64,000 nucleotides of DNA from the NCBI RefSeq assembly GCF_000689395.1, contig NZ_HG966617.1:1301274-1365273 (forward strand), given 5' to 3'. The notes below the pieces were generated by a model. It ran no database searches. It worked only from the letters and a program-made list of their open reading frames with translations, and was not told the DNA's origin. Origin of the DNA: Candidatus Phaeomarinobacter ectocarpi. Lineage in GTDB: Bacteria > Pseudomonadota > Alphaproteobacteria > CGMCC-115125. How positions within the stretch are numbered: position 1 is the first letter of the stretch; every line of letters begins with the position of its first letter. The position numbers and the translations under genes were made by a program. Shown here piece after piece: positions 54,101 to 62,058 of this stretch.

Positions 54101-54115
54101 ATGCGGATTACGCAT
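54101..54115. promoter_or_regulatory. Palindrome upstream of the RND efflux genes
   Basis: ATGCG (54101-54105) and CGCAT (54111-54115) flank GATTA, 82 bases before the GTG start of the adaptor gene. It could be an operator for a regulator of the pump; the same sequence is not found in front of the TetR gene at 58479. Confidence 0.35.
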
Positions 54116-54196
54116 CTCACTAATTCAGGTATCCAGAGTGACCGGAAACCATTACTTCTGGAGACGGTTGGACTTTATCAGTGTGGAGAGCAGCTT

Positions 54197-55294
54197 GTGT
54201 TCCAAATGACAAATCTCAAGATGTGGAAGCACCGCACCGCCACAGGATGTATCGTGGCACTATGTGTGGGACTTGCATCATGTTCTGACGCACCGGAGGC
54301 CAGTGAAGGCCCGTCGGTCCGTCCAGCCAAGCTCTTTGAAGTGGTTCAGTCTGAGAATACAAGAACGATGAACCTGCCTGCTGTGATCAGCGCACGATCA
54401 ACCGCAGACCTGACATTCGAAGTGAATGGCGTGCTTCAGGAGTTCCCGGTCATTGAGGGGCAGCAAGTCGCTGAGGGTGACTTGATTGGTCAGCTGGAAC
54501 AGCGCGCATTTCAAAACCAGGTTGCGCAGGCGGAGGCGACCTACCGCAATGCGCAATCCCAGTTCAACAGAGCAGCCCAACTCATCAAGAAGGGCACAAT
54601 TGCGCAAAAGACATATGATGAGCGGTTGAAAGATCGCGATGTCGCGCGAACCGCTCTCGACGACGCCCAAAAGCAGCTCGATGACAGCACGCTGCGCGCG
54701 CCCTTCGCTGGCGTGATTGCGACCAAGCATGTTGACCAGTTTCAGACTGTTGGAGCCCAATCGGTAATTGTAACGCTCCAGTCTACCGGTGCAGCTGAAG
54801 CTGTTGTTCAGGTGCCATCGACGCTTGTTGCCAATTCCGGTCAGATCGACGTGGCTGAATCCTACGTGGTTCTGGATGCCGCACCTGACAGAGAAGTGCC
54901 GGCGCAAATCGTATCGACTTCAACCCAGACAGATCCCCGGACACAGACATTTCAGGTTCGTTTTGCTTTCGAGCCGCCTGAGGACCTTGTGATCCTGCCT
55001 GGCATGACCGGCACTCTGAGATCCAAACTGCAGATTGCAAACCGCAATGGCGCAGAGGGGCGCATCACAATCCCGCGCACAGCCGTCCTGGCACAGGGAA
55101 ACGACCTTTTTGCCTGGAAAGTCGATGCTGAGACCATGACCGTGTCACGCACAGCCATCACCATCAGTCAGGAAGGACCTGACGTCGGTGCTGATATTGT
55201 CGTGACTTCGGGTCTTGCCGCTGGCGATACGATTGTGGCGGCCGGTGTTTCATTCCTGACGGAGGGCACGCAAGTCCGCGCCTTCGAACAGTAA
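54197..55294 (+). CDS. RND efflux periplasmic adaptor (HlyD/MFP family) lipoprotein
   Basis: A 365-residue membrane fusion protein linking an RND pump to an outer-membrane channel. A lipobox is visible in LCVGLASCSD. The barrel-sandwich/lipoyl half-motif VEGQQ-like VIEGQQVAEGDLIGQLEQ and its partner STLRAPFAGVIATKHVD flank a helical hairpin (~95-165, AQAEATYRNAQSQFNRAAQL). GTG 54197 is chosen because GGAGAG (54185-54190) lies six bases upstream; ATG 54206 and 54221 are alternatives. The transporter gene follows after 12 bases. Confidence 0.93.
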   Translation: MFQMTNLKMWKHRTATGCIVALCVGLASCSDAPEASEGPSVRPAKLFEVVQSENTRTMNLPAVISARSTADLTFEVNGVLQEFPVIEGQQVAEGDLIGQLEQRAFQNQVAQAEATYRNAQSQFNRAAQLIKKGTIAQKTYDERLKDRDVARTALDDAQKQLDDSTLRAPFAGVIATKHVDQFQTVGAQSVIVTLQSTGAAEAVVQVPSTLVANSGQIDVAESYVVLDAAPDREVPAQIVSTSTQTDPRTQTFQVRFAFEPPEDLVILPGMTGTLRSKLQIANRNGAEGRITIPRTAVLAQGNDLFAWKVDAETMTVSRTAITISQEGPDVGADIVVTSGLAAGDTIVAAGVSFLTEGTQVRAFEQ

Positions 55295-55306
55295 GAGGCC
55301 GGTCAC

Positions 55307-58300
55307 ATGCATCCTGCTGAATTTGCCATCAAGAACCGCCTCATCAGCGTGATCGTTATTCTGATTGCGCTCTTTGGAGGCTGGACCGCCTACGAAAACA
55401 TGCCGCGTTTCGAGGATCCGGAATTCACCATTCGGCAGGCTGTGGTCGTCACGCAATATCCCGGTGCGACGCCGGAAGAAGTTGCAAATGAAGTCACCGA
55501 GCCACTGGAAAGCGCCATTCAGCAATTGCAGGAAGTGGACGAAATCACTTCAGAGTCCAGCTTTGGCGTTTCGCGAATAACCGTTGAGATCAAGTTTGAG
55601 TTTTCCCCCAGCAAAGAAGATCTTCAAATCATCTGGGGCAAACTGCGCAACAAGGTGGATGATGCGACAGGCAGCCTGCCGCCGGGCGCACTAGCGCCGG
55701 TCACCAATGACGACTTCGGCGATGTGTATGGCCTCTACTATTTCGTGACCGGCGAAGGCTATACGGCCAAGGAACTGCATGAGTATGTAAAAGGTCTGCG
55801 GGCGGACCTTTTGGCAGTGGATGATGTCGCAAAGGTTGCGATCACAGGCGTCCAGTCTGAGGCGATCTATGTGGAGATTTCCAGAGATCGGGCTGCAGCT
55901 CTCGGCGTCTCGGTGGATCAGGTCTACAACGACCTTGCCAAGCAGAACTCGGTCGTCCCGGCCGGCAGTGTGCGTGTGGGCGATTTGCGTCTGAATATCC
56001 TGCCCACGGGAGATATCGACTCCGTCGCGGCAATTGAAAACGTCATCGTTTCAACAAGCTCATCCAGCGGCTCTGATACTGCCGGCGTGGTCTACTTGCG
56101 AGACATCGCAACGGTTCGACGTGAACCCAAAGACCCGCAGAAGTTTATCCTGCGCCACAACGGGCAACCTGCTTTGGGACTCGGTATTTCAAACGTGACC
56201 GGTGCCAACGTCGTAAAAATGGCCAAGGGTATTGATGCGGCCTTTGCGGCAGAGGAATCCCGTCGCCCAATCGGCATGGAAATTCATCAGTACTACCACC
56301 AGGGCAATATCGTCGAGAAGGCGGTGCAGGACTTCGTGGTCAATGTGGTCATGGCTCTGGTCATCGTTTTGATCACGCTGCTTATTTTCATGGGCCTCAA
56401 ATCGGCTGTCGTGATCGGCGCGGTCTTGCTACTGACGATCGCTGCCACACTTGGCACCATGTATCTGGTCGATATTCCCATGCACCGGATTTCGCTGGGC
56501 GCACTGATCATTGCGCTGGGCATGCTGGTGGACAACGCCATTGTTGTGACTGAGGGAATCCTTGTCGGCGTCCAGCAAGGGCGCAAGAAACTCGACGTTG
56601 CCAAGGACATTGTGACCCGCACCTGGTGGCCGCTTCTGGGCGGTACCATTGTAGGCATCATTGCCTTTGCCCCCATCGGCTTCGCGCCCGGTAGCACGGC
56701 GGAATATACCGGCCACTTGTTCTGGGTGGTGCTGATCTCCCTGCTCTATAGCTGGGTGTTTGCCATTACCGCAGTACCTTTGCTGGCAGACCTTCTGTTC
56801 GAAGAGAACACAGCTGCGGCCGGACATGCGCCTCCGGAAGGCGCGTTTTCGCTTTACTACAAGAGGTTCATGCGGGGCGTGCTGGCCGCCCGTTGGGGCG
56901 TTATTGGCATAGCCGTTGGCCTGTTCGTTGTGTCCGTTTGGGCATTCCAGTTCACAAAGTCCGGCTTTTTCCCAAGCTCGACTACGCCTCAGCTGGTTGT
57001 TGATTACTGGCTTACCGAGGGCACGGACATTGATCGTACCGATGCTGACATGCGCCAACTGGAACAGGCAGTGGCTCAACTGGACGGTGTTGAGAGCGTC
57101 ACGACATATGTCGGTCAGGGCGGTCTTCGATACATGCTTGTGTATCCGCCAGAGTCCTACAACAGCGCATATGGACAATTACTTGTTCGGGTCTCTGACT
57201 ATTCGCTGATTGATACTCTGATCCCCACCATTCAGTCCTACGTGGACAACAACTATCCCGATGCCCAGGGCAAGGTCTGGCGCTTCAAGCTGGGGCCGGG
57301 CGGAGGGTCTGCCATTCAGGCAGAGTTTTCCGGACCTGATCCTGTTGTGCTGCGCCGTCTGGCAGGTGAGGCCACCGACATATTTGCGCAAGACGGCAAC
57401 CTCATTTCCATAAATGAAGACTGGCGTCAGCCTGTATCTGTCCTCGAACCAATTTACTCTGAAACGAGCGGCCGCCGACTGGGCGTCTCCCGCGAGGACC
57501 TGGCAGCGGCATTGAGGTCAAATTATTCAGGACGCGACATCGGCGTATATCGCGAGGGTGATGAGCTGATCCCTATCATCGCGCGTGCGCCCGAAGCAGA
57601 ACGCACCGGCGTTTCCGGTCTGCCGGGTATTCAGATCCCAAGTGCTACAACCGGCAATACTGTGCCTCTGATCGAAGTCGTCGAAGGTGTGAATTCCACA
57701 TGGCGAGATGCGCAGCTCCGCCGTCTTGATCGTGTATGGACAATCAAGGCACAGGCAGACCCCCTGCCCTCTGAATTGGCGTCGGTCGCCTTCGACCGTA
57801 TCCGCGGACAGGTCGAGGCCATCGCCTTGCCGCCCGGATACACGTTGACGTGGCGGGGTGAGTATGGAGACAGCACGGAAGCCAACGGCAATCTTGCGAC
57901 CACGTTGCCCATCGGCCTTGCGGCAATGGTCCTGACGGTCATCATCCTCTTCAATGCGATCCGCCAGCCGCTCCTGATCTGGCTCGTGGTGCCGTTGTCG
58001 ATTATCGGCGTGGTGATCGGTTTGCTTGTGACCGGTAGCGCCATGGAGTTCATGGCCATCCTCGGTGTGCTGTCCCTGTCAGGACTCCTGATCAAGAATG
58101 CCATTGTGCTCGTGGACCAAATGGACCTGGAAATACGCGAGGGTAAACCCCGGCACGATGCCGTCATCGACAGTGCAGCCAGCCGCGTGAGGCCGGTCAT
58201 GATGGGGTCGATGACGACGGTGCTTGGTGTCCTGCCGCTGTTTATGGACCCGTTCTTTGCGGCAATGGCAGTGGTTCTGGTGTTTGGTCTCAGCTTCGCA

Positions 58301-58381
58301 ACGCTCCTGACGCTCATCGTCGTGCCAGCTCTCTACGCCATCTTCTTTGGCATAACCGATGAAGAGCGCAGTTACGCGTAG
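55307..58381 (+). CDS. RND efflux transporter permease (HAE1/AcrB-like)
   Basis: A 1024-residue proton-driven exporter with twelve helices and two large periplasmic loops (~35-330 and ~550-860). The proton-relay helix 4 reads LIIALGMLVDNAIVV: the first relay Asp is kept, but the second, Asp in AcrB, is Asn. Helix 10 keeps the relay Lys (LSGLLIKNAIVLVDQMD). Substrates of this branch range over drugs, solvents and lipids and cannot be assigned. No outer-membrane channel gene is adjacent, so TolC or a similar protein must be elsewhere. Confidence 0.94.
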   Translation: MHPAEFAIKNRLISVIVILIALFGGWTAYENMPRFEDPEFTIRQAVVVTQYPGATPEEVANEVTEPLESAIQQLQEVDEITSESSFGVSRITVEIKFEFSPSKEDLQIIWGKLRNKVDDATGSLPPGALAPVTNDDFGDVYGLYYFVTGEGYTAKELHEYVKGLRADLLAVDDVAKVAITGVQSEAIYVEISRDRAAALGVSVDQVYNDLAKQNSVVPAGSVRVGDLRLNILPTGDIDSVAAIENVIVSTSSSSGSDTAGVVYLRDIATVRREPKDPQKFILRHNGQPALGLGISNVTGANVVKMAKGIDAAFAAEESRRPIGMEIHQYYHQGNIVEKAVQDFVVNVVMALVIVLITLLIFMGLKSAVVIGAVLLLTIAATLGTMYLVDIPMHRISLGALIIALGMLVDNAIVVTEGILVGVQQGRKKLDVAKDIVTRTWWPLLGGTIVGIIAFAPIGFAPGSTAEYTGHLFWVVLISLLYSWVFAITAVPLLADLLFEENTAAAGHAPPEGAFSLYYKRFMRGVLAARWGVIGIAVGLFVVSVWAFQFTKSGFFPSSTTPQLVVDYWLTEGTDIDRTDADMRQLEQAVAQLDGVESVTTYVGQGGLRYMLVYPPESYNSAYGQLLVRVSDYSLIDTLIPTIQSYVDNNYPDAQGKVWRFKLGPGGGSAIQAEFSGPDPVVLRRLAGEATDIFAQDGNLISINEDWRQPVSVLEPIYSETSGRRLGVSREDLAAALRSNYSGRDIGVYREGDELIPIIARAPEAERTGVSGLPGIQIPSATTGNTVPLIEVVEGVNSTWRDAQLRRLDRVWTIKAQADPLPSELASVAFDRIRGQVEAIALPPGYTLTWRGEYGDSTEANGNLATTLPIGLAAMVLTVIILFNAIRQPLLIWLVVPLSIIGVVIGLLVTGSAMEFMAILGVLSLSGLLIKNAIVLVDQMDLEIREGKPRHDAVIDSAASRVRPVMMGSMTTVLGVLPLFMDPFFAAMAVVLVFGLSFATLLTLIVVPALYAIFFGITDEERSYA

Positions 58382-58478
58382 GCCAAAGCGTTGGGAATGT
58401 ACGCCAGGTATTGACGCGCAATATGCCAATTCCTAGGTTGGTGGCTGACAATTTTGCTGAATAGAGCGGTTCCCACCA

Positions 58479-59111
58479 ATGGCGCCAAAGTCACCCACCA
58501 ACGCTGTGTCCAAATCTACAGAACCCGCCGCCACAGAGATGGGCGCACAAGGTGACGGACGCCGGCAGCGCAGTGAGCGAAGCCGCGCAAAGATTGTAGC
58601 AGCGATGTTCTCAGTCATCCGCGGCGGCGAGATGGATCCGAGCGCCGCAACTCTCGCCGAAGAGGCAAAGGTCGGCATCCGGACTGTCTTCCGGCACTTT
58701 GACGACGTGGACAGCCTCTACCGGGAAATGTCTGCTCAGATGGAAGCAGAGATTCGTCCCATCGTTGCTAAGCCGTTCAGTGCGACTACCTGGCAGGGTC
58801 GCCTGTCGGAGATGATCGACCGGCGTGTAAATGTTTATGAGCGCATCATGCCGATCAAGACATGCGCAGGGCTGCGTCGTTTCAGGTCCGAATACCTGAT
58901 GCAGGACTATCAGCGTTTTCTGACCATGGAGCGCGAAGGCCTTGCCAGCGTTCTCCCAAGCCACATCAAATCCGACAAAACGCTTTTCGCGGCATTGGAG
59001 ATGCTCGTTGGCTTCAACGCCTGGAGGCGGTTGCGGCAGGATCAGCAACTCACGGCCAAGCAGGCTGAAAAGGCAATCCGGTTCAGTGTCGAGAAACTGG
59101 TGGCGGAGTAA
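58479..59111 (+). CDS. TetR-family transcriptional regulator
   Basis: A 210-residue repressor-like protein. The N-terminal ~35 residues are polar and disordered; the HTH lies at ~35-85 (RSRAKIVAAMFSVI...ATLAEEAKVGIRTVFRHFDDVDSLYREM), matching TetR_N. The rest is an all-helical ligand-binding and dimer domain. It follows the RND transporter by 97 bases, so the pump is a natural target. Its stop TAA is directly followed by the ATG of the FGE gene with no spacer. Confidence 0.9.
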   Translation: MAPKSPTNAVSKSTEPAATEMGAQGDGRRQRSERSRAKIVAAMFSVIRGGEMDPSAATLAEEAKVGIRTVFRHFDDVDSLYREMSAQMEAEIRPIVAKPFSATTWQGRLSEMIDRRVNVYERIMPIKTCAGLRRFRSEYLMQDYQRFLTMEREGLASVLPSHIKSDKTLFAALEMLVGFNAWRRLRQDQQLTAKQAEKAIRFSVEKLVAE

Positions 59112-60023
59112 ATGCGTTTCGTCGTCCTCCTGTCGCTGGTTGGTGCGCTTGCAGCGTGTGATGAAGGCACAGCGACGTTATCTGGAGATATCGGCCAGAC
59201 GGCAAACGCGGCCGCATGCGGCCTGACCAAAGACCGCATTGGCAGCTTTGCATCAATTCCGTCCGGCTCATTTGTCAAAGGCAGGGATGCAGTCTACCCG
59301 GAAGAAAAACTGGGTCTTCGTCTGCATGTTGTGGGATTTGATATTCAGACACACGAGGTGACCAACGCGCAGTTTGCAGCATTCGTTGAGGCGACGAATT
59401 ACGAAACCACAGCTGAACGAGACATCGCGGCCGGGCGCACCGGTGCGGGGTCTGCCGTTTTTGAGCGGATTGTGGATGGCACCATGACCGCCAATCCGTG
59501 GAAGTTGATACCCGGCGCAACGTGGCAGAATCCTGATGGGCCGGATTCATCAATAGTAGGTCTGGACAATCACCCCGTCGTTCATGTGTCGCTTGCGGAT
59601 GCACAGGCCTATGCAAAGTGGGCCGGCGCTCGGTTGCCCACAGAAGAAGAGTGGGAGTTTGCCGCGTCTAGCGGCCTGCCCGACCCGAACGTGACGACAT
59701 CGGGCGCGTATGATGAAACCGGCAAGCCGCGCGCCAACACGTGGCAGGGGGTGTTTCCCTTCTTTGACCAGGCCGAGGATGGGTTCTCCGGAGCCTCGCC
59801 GGTTGGCTGCTTCCCAGCTGATCAAAACGGCGTCTACGACATGATCGGCAATGTGTGGGAGCTAACCGATACGCCCTATGCGGACGGAACACAGACCATC
59901 AAAGGCGGGTCTTATCTGTGCGCCGACAATTTCTGCCGTCGCTACCGGCCCGAAGCCCGGCAACCCTCAGAGGTTGATTTTTCCACCAACCACATCGGGT
60001 TCCGGGTCGTTCGGGACGAATAG
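59112..60023 (+). CDS. Formylglycine-generating enzyme-like lipoprotein (sulfatase-modifying)
   Basis: A 303-residue FGE-sulfatase family protein. It has a lipoprotein signal (MRFVVLLSLVGALAAC; lipobox Cys16), so it should be exported and lipid-anchored. The core has THEVTNAQFAAFVEATNY, ARLPTEEEWEFAA and NGVYDMIGNVWELTD. GGSYLCADNFCRRYR contains Cys270 and Cys275, with the same spacing as the catalytic pair of human FGE, so it is probably a true copper-dependent FGE that turns the sulfatase Cys to formylglycine. It is convergent with a sulfatase gene carrying CAPSR, seven bases away. ATG 59112 abuts the TetR stop. Confidence 0.9.
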   Translation: MRFVVLLSLVGALAACDEGTATLSGDIGQTANAAACGLTKDRIGSFASIPSGSFVKGRDAVYPEEKLGLRLHVVGFDIQTHEVTNAQFAAFVEATNYETTAERDIAAGRTGAGSAVFERIVDGTMTANPWKLIPGATWQNPDGPDSSIVGLDNHPVVHVSLADAQAYAKWAGARLPTEEEWEFAASSGLPDPNVTTSGAYDETGKPRANTWQGVFPFFDQAEDGFSGASPVGCFPADQNGVYDMIGNVWELTDTPYADGTQTIKGGSYLCADNFCRRYRPEARQPSEVDFSTNHIGFRVVRDE

Positions 60024-60030
60024 CGTTTCG

Positions 60031-61689
60031 TCAGTTCGGCCAGAAAATCAGTTCGTCACCCTCTTCGTATCTTTCGGCAAGAGTCTTATCGATGGCGATT
60101 GGCAGTTCACCTTGATGGGTATAAAGCGGTGGCCGTGCTGAGGCGCTGTGTGCGTCCAACAGAGCCGTGAGTTCCGCCAGCTTCGCTGAGTTTTGATCCG
60201 CCAGATTGGTCTGCTCAGTTGGGTCTTCGCCAAGATTGAACAGCCATGCTTTGTTTGGCCGCTCGGACAACTGGAGTTTCCAGTCACCCTGCCTGACAAC
60301 GCGATAATGGGCACTTGTCCAGAAGATGGCGTCATGCGGATCTTCAGTGGTTGCACCGGTTGCAAGCGGCAGGAGGTCCTTACCATCCAACTCCACAGTG
60401 TCCGGTACCGAAGCGCCTCCAGCTGCGGCAAGCGTCGGCATAAGGTCAATATGGGCCACCGGGGAGGCTATCTGGGTACCAGCGGCAATTTGATCTGGCC
60501 AGCGCATAAGCATTGGCACACGGATGCCGCCTTCAAAGAGGGTCAGCTTCCAGCCGCGATAAGGGGCGTTGACGTCCGGCAGGCCGATATACCCAGCCCC
60601 TCCATTGTCACTTGAGAAAACAATGATGGTGTTGTCTGCAATACCTTCTTCTTCAAGTGTCTCGATGATGTCGCCCACACTGCGGTCAACCGCTCGCATC
60701 ATGGCAGCATAGACACGCGCCCGGTGAGGTTTGATGTCGCCAACAGCTTCATAGTCTTCGCGGGTTGCCTGCAGCGGTGTGTGAATGCCCCAATGAGCAA
60801 GGTACAAGAAGAATGGATTGTCCTTGTTGGCACGAATGACTTTCTGGGCTTCGTCCGTCCAATAGTCGGTGATGTATCCACCCGGCTCGAACCATTCGCT
60901 GTTGTTGTAGCTGGCCGCGTATTGCATGCGTGCCCAGAGGAACTGATCGATAGGGTCAAAATCCACCTTGGCGTTCACGACGTTCGGGTCGTCCTCCGGC
61001 AGGAACAGCCCGCTTGCCATCAGCAGGCTCTCGTCAAACCCCTGCGCCGTTGCATCGAATTCCTCGCCGCGTCCCAGGTGCCACTTGCCGATGTGTACTG
61101 TGTGGTAGCCGGCATCCTGAAGAACCTCGGCAACCGTCACCTCGGAGCCAGGCAGGCCCTGCTCTTCATAGGAGAGCTGACGTTCGGACGTCTGTGGGGG
61201 CTGATAGAACTCCGGCAGGCCGTTATCCATGCTGGATGCGATCATGCGCACCAGCGGCGCCATGCCTTCTGGTGTTGGGGTGAACTCAAATCCTGTTCGG
61301 GACGGATAGCGCCCTGTCATGATCATCGCACGTGAAGGGGCGCAACTGCCGGTGCCAGCATAGGCCTGAGTGAAGCTTGCACCGTCCGTGGCCAACGAGT
61401 CGATGTGGGGTGTCTTCATACGTCCATCATCCATGCCGCCACCAAATGTCGAGACATCATTGATGCCCATGTCATCGGCTAGAATGAAGATGATATTGGG
61501 GGCACCCTCTTTGGCTTTGGCAGCTCTGGCCGGGTCAGGCGTCTGCCACTCTATAGCCCGGTTCGGGCCAACTTCGGGCAGGCCGCGATTGGCTGCGAGA
61601 TAGAGAACAATGTCCACCCGCATGAGATAGGCAAGGCCACCCAGCAGAACAGCTGCGGCCAAAACCCCAAGAACGATCTTCTTCCCCAT
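60031..61689 (-). CDS. Membrane-anchored sulfatase
   Basis: A 552-residue type I sulfatase. Residues ~4-24 (IVLGVLAAAVLLGGLAYL) are an uncleaved membrane anchor. Metal ligands lie in ILADDMGIND; Cys116 in CAPSR (C-x-P-S-R, then TGRYPSRTG) is the residue to be converted to formylglycine. IGKWHLG, IVFSSDNGG and the late His/Lys residues fit arylsulfatases. Substrate unknown; sulfated polysaccharides or phenolic sulfates are possible. ATG 61689 follows AAGGTGG; GTG 61698 is open but less likely. A clear promoter lies upstream. Confidence 0.94.
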   Translation of the reverse strand: MGKKIVLGVLAAAVLLGGLAYLMRVDIVLYLAANRGLPEVGPNRAIEWQTPDPARAAKAKEGAPNIIFILADDMGINDVSTFGGGMDDGRMKTPHIDSLATDGASFTQAYAGTGSCAPSRAMIMTGRYPSRTGFEFTPTPEGMAPLVRMIASSMDNGLPEFYQPPQTSERQLSYEEQGLPGSEVTVAEVLQDAGYHTVHIGKWHLGRGEEFDATAQGFDESLLMASGLFLPEDDPNVVNAKVDFDPIDQFLWARMQYAASYNNSEWFEPGGYITDYWTDEAQKVIRANKDNPFFLYLAHWGIHTPLQATREDYEAVGDIKPHRARVYAAMMRAVDRSVGDIIETLEEEGIADNTIIVFSSDNGGAGYIGLPDVNAPYRGWKLTLFEGGIRVPMLMRWPDQIAAGTQIASPVAHIDLMPTLAAAGGASVPDTVELDGKDLLPLATGATTEDPHDAIFWTSAHYRVVRQGDWKLQLSERPNKAWLFNLGEDPTEQTNLADQNSAKLAELTALLDAHSASARPPLYTHQGELPIAIDKTLAERYEEGDELIFWPN

Positions 61690-61706
61690 AGGATCCACCT
61701 TTTTAA

Positions 61707-61751
61707 TGGCATTAATTATGCCAATACATTCTCATATGGCTGAATTGTCAA
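61707..61751 (-). promoter_or_regulatory. Sulfatase promoter with overlapping palindromic operator
   Basis: On the minus strand: -35 TTGACA (61746-61751), 17-base spacer, -10 TGTATT (61723-61728), then a perfect inverted repeat TGGCAT / ATGCCA with a five-base centre (61707-61723) where transcription should begin. A repressor bound there would block the promoter. The sulfatase ATG is at 61689. Confidence 0.6.
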
Positions 61752-62058
61752 GTTTCCTGGTCGTTGGCTGTGCCCATACTGGCACCTGCGCATAGGTGGC
61801 ATGCCTTGTAATTGCTCCATTTAGCTGTCATGTCACAGGTCTTGTTGAGCATCCAAGTGATTTGGAACCGACATTGGCGTTCGCGAACGGTACGGGTAGG
61901 ACATTCAAATGTCCGCCGGGTGCCCAAGATGAGGGTCAAACAGACGACCCTCATAGTTGCCTTTTGAGTATCAAAAAGGCCACGCGACACGTTCCCGTGC
62001 CATGACGCTATCTCGGACTATCCGGCTGGCTGCGGGCACTCTTTTTGAAAGTACCTAA
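61752..62058 (+). other. Structured leader region of the DEAD-box helicase gene
   Basis: No gene in 307 bases. It holds a series of inverted repeats: TCCAA/TTGGA (61852-61866), the perfect palindrome CGTTCGCGAACG (61878-61889), GGACATT/AATGTCC (61899-61914), ATGAGGGTC/GACCCTCAT with an eight-base loop (61929-61954), and GCCTTTTGA/TCAAAAAGGC (61959-61980). They lie 79-207 bases before the GTG start. Smaller repeats occur near 61768-61800. A regulated 5' leader or a small RNA would fit. No clear plus-strand promoter was found. Confidence 0.5.

Follow-up and report, generated by a model that had tools for sequence, protein, structure and literature searches.

We analysed a 64,000-nucleotide stretch of the Candidatus Phaeomarinobacter ectocarpi genome (the window). 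The palindromic element overlapping the promoter of a sulfatase gene at 61707-61751 is very likely, judging from its sequence, an operator of the autoregulated TetR-family repressor encoded at 58479, which would control the sulfatase together with its maturase and distant genes.

Reading of the minus strand confirmed the arrangement given in a preliminary description of this region, namely TTGACA, a 17-base spacer and TGTATT above a perfect TGGCAT-N5-ATGCCA. The −35 box TTGACA (61746..61751) is separated by 17 nt from the −10 box TGTATT (61723..61728), which matches the consensus in four of six positions and lacks the A at position 2. The palindrome TGGCATAATTAATGCCA (TGGCAT-AATTA-ATGCCA, 61723-61707) starts on the last base of the −10 box, and 17 bases separate it from the sulfatase ATG. 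The predicted 19-bp operator TTGGCATAATTAATGCCAT (61706..61724, minus strand) matches TTGRCAY-N5-RTGYCAA in 13 of 14 positions and overlaps the end of the −10 box and the putative +1, as we infer from the sequence that transcription starts near 61716. The start codon of the sulfatase is best put at ATG 61689, with a likely Shine-Dalgarno sequence AAGGTGG (61695..61701, minus strand) 5 nt upstream; the alternative GTG at 61698 in the list of open reading frames falls within this AAGGTGG. The window, searched on both strands, contains a single combination of TTGACA with at least four of six positions of TATAAT at a distance of 16-18 nt, and this is the sulfatase promoter. A stricter promoter scanner did not include the sulfatase promoter in its list.

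The exact TGGCAT-N5-ATGCCA is found in the window a single time, at the sulfatase promoter, and with up to two mismatches there are eight matches against 5.8 expected. Perfect 6-bp arms with gaps of 3-8 nt appear about 0.23 times per 100 bp. The window contains 33 of them with a gap of 5 nt; a palindrome of this kind therefore says little on its own, and we dropped it as a proof. Another palindrome, TTAATG-C-CATTAA, overlaps the downstream arm by eye in our genome and in G002; it is broken in G003 and was not preferred.

Sulfatase orthologs are present in three genomes of the same genus, with 80, 79 and 65 % identity. The preliminary description would have been contradicted by a palindrome that is not conserved, and the palindrome turned out to be conserved in both same-genus species keeping the locus, G002 and G003. 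These two keep TTGACA, the −10 box, the AATGTATTGGCATAAT block and the second arm, while most of the promoter spacer differs. The element appears to be real because it is conserved in two species of the genus despite the drifting spacer. In G001 the sulfatase gene is located elsewhere in the genome and has a different palindrome. Its promoter (L081, around 10234) carries the inverted repeat TTGAATTAAT-N7-ATTAATTCAA over TTGACC-N17-AATAAT, and from this sequence the repressor seems to have been swapped.

The gene proposed to encode the binder of the operator is located at 58479..59111 on the plus strand. Its product reached 16.4 bits with the Pfam TetR_N model, under the cut-off of 24. A profile of nine orthologs retrieved solved TetR regulators with the best E-value of 6.7e-8. 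The AlphaFold2 model (pLDDT 87) had TetR-type regulators as top matches in Foldseek (best E 7e-4, TM 0.64). By the ortholog profile the product has the N-terminal helix-turn-helix domain of TetR proteins, and its predicted fold is the all-helical one of TetR; these two results identify it as a TetR-family regulator. Upstream of the gene there is a second predicted operator, TTGACGCGCAATATGCCAA (58411..58429, plus strand), with 13 of 14 positions and an exact match to the looser TTGRCRY-N5-RTGYCAA, and it covers the −35 box of TTGACG-N17-TAGGTT. The sulfatase promoter and the TetR promoter are the two sites in the window that score at least 13/14. The corresponding site of the TetR gene reads TTGACGTGCATTATGCCAA in G002 and TTGACGTCCGGTATGCCAA in G003, and G001 has a degenerate form of the operator there. 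The half-sites and their spacing are the same at the sulfatase and TetR promoters in three species.

The FGE (formylglycine-generating enzyme) gene (59112..60023, plus strand) begins at the first base past the TetR stop codon. In phmmer searches against solved structures, its product hit the two best chains, the second of which is named FGE, with E-values of 3e-51 and 4.7e-51. Two conserved cysteines, which we take to be the active-site pair, align with those of the solved FGEs, and by this alignment and its fold family the protein belongs to the FGE family. The sulfatase (60031..61689, minus strand) has a hydrophobic N-terminus, a PF00884 domain (E 9.9e-58) and the CAPSR active-site motif at residues 116-120, with C116, P118, S119 and R120 invariant in nine orthologs. 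With the sulfatase domain and C-x-P-S-R it is, by sequence, a type I sulfatase. The order TetR, FGE and convergent sulfatase was found also in G185 (49, 64 and 66 % identity). The Ca. P. ectocarpi genome paper lists eight formylglycine-dependent sulfatases, and its main text does not contain the term TetR (PMC4110880).

The genes directly upstream of the TetR gene (54101-58381) encode an RND efflux pump and the membrane-fusion protein that partners it, and both remain beside TetR in G001, a genome that lacks FGE and sulfatase at this place. We found no operator upstream of the pump genes (upstream of 54101), the best score being just 9/14, and operator control of the pump was rejected on this score.

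The 19-bp consensus TTGRCAY-N5-RTGYCAA, scored over 14 positions, was derived from six genomes (G000, G002, G003, G006, G012 and G021). We searched with it within 300 bp upstream of the relatives of the sulfatase. The scan covered 78 of 80 loci, as L175 and L234 with less than 150 bp of upstream sequence were left out, and L160 was taken as the same contig as that of G003, the two being equal in length and identity. Sites of at least 13/14 precede eight of the 78 named relatives and sites of at least 12/14 precede 16, against means of 0.06 (maximum 3) and 0.66 (maximum 11) for 300 permuted palindromes. The eight come from our own genus (L160), Hyphomonas beringensis, two Caulobacteraceae bins, an Erythrobacter bin, and Halieaceae, Luminiphilus and Porticoccaceae bins. 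When spacers of 0-12 nt were tested upstream of the relatives, 5 alone stood out. The remaining 62 of 78 relatives have no site of at least 12/14 within 300 bp; some of these genes may be internal to operons or respond to other regulators. The upstream regions of the TetR subfamily were scanned for the 30 of 40 matches that have loci. Ten have a site of at least 12/14 and six of at least 13/14 (means for the 300 permuted palindromes 0.31, maximum 6, and 0.013, maximum 2, respectively), and in the other 20 no site of at least 12/14 was found upstream.

The association was inspected also genome-wide in 385 genomes of the class Alphaproteobacteria. The sulfatase (E ≤ 1e-100) is present in 24 of them, the TetR profile (E ≤ 1e-25) matches in 28, and both are found in 19. 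Genomes with TetR at E ≤ 1e-55 number 18 and contain 45 exact operators, at least one in 15 of them; the remaining 367 contain 74, distributed in 61 genomes. The ten genomes with weaker TetR matches have no exact operator. After exclusion of the genomes from which the motif was formed, nine of twelve have an exact operator (p 2e-5, a value that ignores relatedness), and among those of other genera seven of nine do; this held-out test is not fully blind, as the motif was formalised after some of the later genomes had been seen. Judging from the 74 exact sites in genomes without a close TetR, and from G268, which has five exact operators and no close relative of TetR 58479, some occurrences of the pattern are due to chance or belong to other regulators. 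We set aside a genome-wide excess of loose sites over a backwards control, since the control does not have the same codon content as the pattern.

Further candidate targets were found outside the window. The site TTGGCACAAATAATGCCAA at position 2966469 of the same contig precedes a gene for a 233-aa membrane-anchored protein (contig position 2966554; L150:6555-7256), whose family has no Pfam or NCBIfam match. This family is present in 10 of 372 genomes, every one with a close TetR, and a 14/14 operator lies upstream of nine of the eleven copies, the exceptions being in G349 and G094. Among permuted controls one pattern reached nine of eleven at ≥12 matches, and the maximum at ≥13 was three. 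The site ATGGCATTATGAATGCCAA at contig position 3120464 precedes a gene for a 216-aa protein. Its relative in G003 (68 % identity) likewise has a 14/14 site, and a more distant one (31 %) lies in the sulfatase cluster of G012, between the sulfatase and a glutathione-transferase gene that is itself headed by a 14/14 site. In a metallo-hydrolase family, scanned for 11 of 12 matches with a partial one in G323 left out, three of eleven copies have a site of at least 13 and our own copy has 11/14. Near other sites we noticed glutathione transferases, a DJ-1/PfpI protein, a P450, a thiolase and haloalkane dehalogenases that passed the NCBIfam cut-off. In G323 a 13/14 site, a DUF1330-like gene, a haloalkane dehalogenase, a TetR gene and a sulfatase follow in succession.

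The 33 perfect 6-5-6 palindromes of the window would fit a palindrome lying by chance next to a chance promoter-like pair. We consider such a coincidence very unlikely, as the palindrome is retained in G002 and G003 against the drifting spacer and its recurrence in front of the sulfatase relatives and the TetR gene exceeds all permuted controls at ≥13/14. It is even harder to believe that the element is a sigma-54 (−24/−12) promoter. In such promoters the GG at −24 and the GC at −12 are invariant, and the sulfatase copy does have GG and GC 12 bases apart (TGGCAT...TGC). However, both are kept in just 7 of the 32 collected sites on either strand, and the sigma-54 reading was rejected because of this. 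Moreover, transcription starting some 12 nt downstream would begin on the Shine-Dalgarno sequence, and TTGACA-N17-TGTATT is conserved upstream.

The operator could be genuine and bound mainly by another regulator, with TetR 58479 controlling itself alone. The sulfatase site differs from the TetR site in its centre and in its position within the promoter, such sites exist in genomes without a close relative of TetR 58479, and further genes of the own genome, e.g. in L150, look TetR-like by eye. On the other hand, the half-sites and spacing are identical at both promoters in three species, the operator and the TetR subfamily co-occur, and our genome has a single match to TetR 58479 at E ≤ 0.001. 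Taken together, we regard control by another regulator as unlikely. The preliminary description, which had pointed to a repressor-type palindrome and to the TetR protein at 58479, gave the sequence correctly and is probably also correct about the regulator. The palindrome is supported by its conservation in the genus and its recurrence before sulfatase relatives elsewhere, and the regulator by the occurrence of this operator across its own −35 box and at the promoters of its orthologs and by the concentration of exact operators in genomes with close TetR relatives.

With TetR 58479 as the repressor, a dimer of the protein would bind TTGRCAY-N5-RTGYCAA. At the sulfatase promoter it would sit on the end of the −10 box and the start site and block RNA polymerase, and at the TetR promoter it would cover its own −35 box, resulting in autoregulation. 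The positions of both operators suit such an occlusion of the polymerase. An inducer, which is probably small, hydrophobic and related to the substrate of the sulfatase, would release the repressor, and the sulfatase and FGE, by which sulfatases are matured, would rise together, the latter via a putative tetR-FGE transcript.

Systems of this kind are known. EdcR of Caenibius tardaugens, a TetR-like repressor that controls estradiol degradation, appears to be a close functional counterpart; according to the published description, a palindrome also overlaps the −10 box of its target promoters and a copy, less conserved, is present at the repressor's own promoter (PMC8700777). Unlike in our case, the operator of EdcR is TnnCnnTACnAnTnGTAnnGnnA, the targets are steroid genes and the effector is known (PMC8700777). 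The predicted fold of 58479 aligns with the solved TetR structures of EthR, KstR, Ms6564 and Rv0078 with TM of 0.50-0.64 by query length and probability 1.00; the sequence identity is 12-19 % and the proteins are likened by the structure match alone. In open-licence papers we found neither a joint TetR control of FGE and sulfatase nor a description of this regulon, and queries with the operator letters returned unrelated papers, which does not establish absence from print.

In a genus associated with brown algae, a sulfatase and its maturase now have a concrete candidate pair of repressor and operator. Since this pair makes the inducer searchable, the search can extend directly to the natural substrate on which this branch of sulfatases acts. 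The recurrence of the operator before related genes in many bacteria points to a shared control circuit, and in other bacteria its signature can be used to predict which genes of unknown function are co-regulated. The genes around the sites include sulfatases with FGE, haloalkane dehalogenases, glutathione transferases, a P450 and several small, uncharacterised membrane-anchored proteins. One may speculate that the operator marks a TetR regulon for the breakdown of sulfated and halogenated hydrophobic natural products, e.g. algal halogenated sulfolipids, common to several families of Alphaproteobacteria and some Gammaproteobacteria, an idea that we hold for rather improbable as it stands. Export of such compounds might be the task of the RND pump encoded next to the repressor.

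On the other side of the promoter, the leader of a DEAD-box helicase gene (62059) extends over about 300 bp on the plus strand (61753-62058). The Rfam scan of this region gave no family above the threshold, and one sub-threshold match to a snoRNA was treated as chance. The leader is largely conserved in G002 and G003, better than the promoter spacer of the sulfatase, and possibly represents a structured regulatory 5′ leader. It contains a terminator-like hairpin at 61929-61954 and a second hairpin (GCCTTTTTGA...AAAAGGC), which by eye is apparently a different one in G003, where pairing is still possible.
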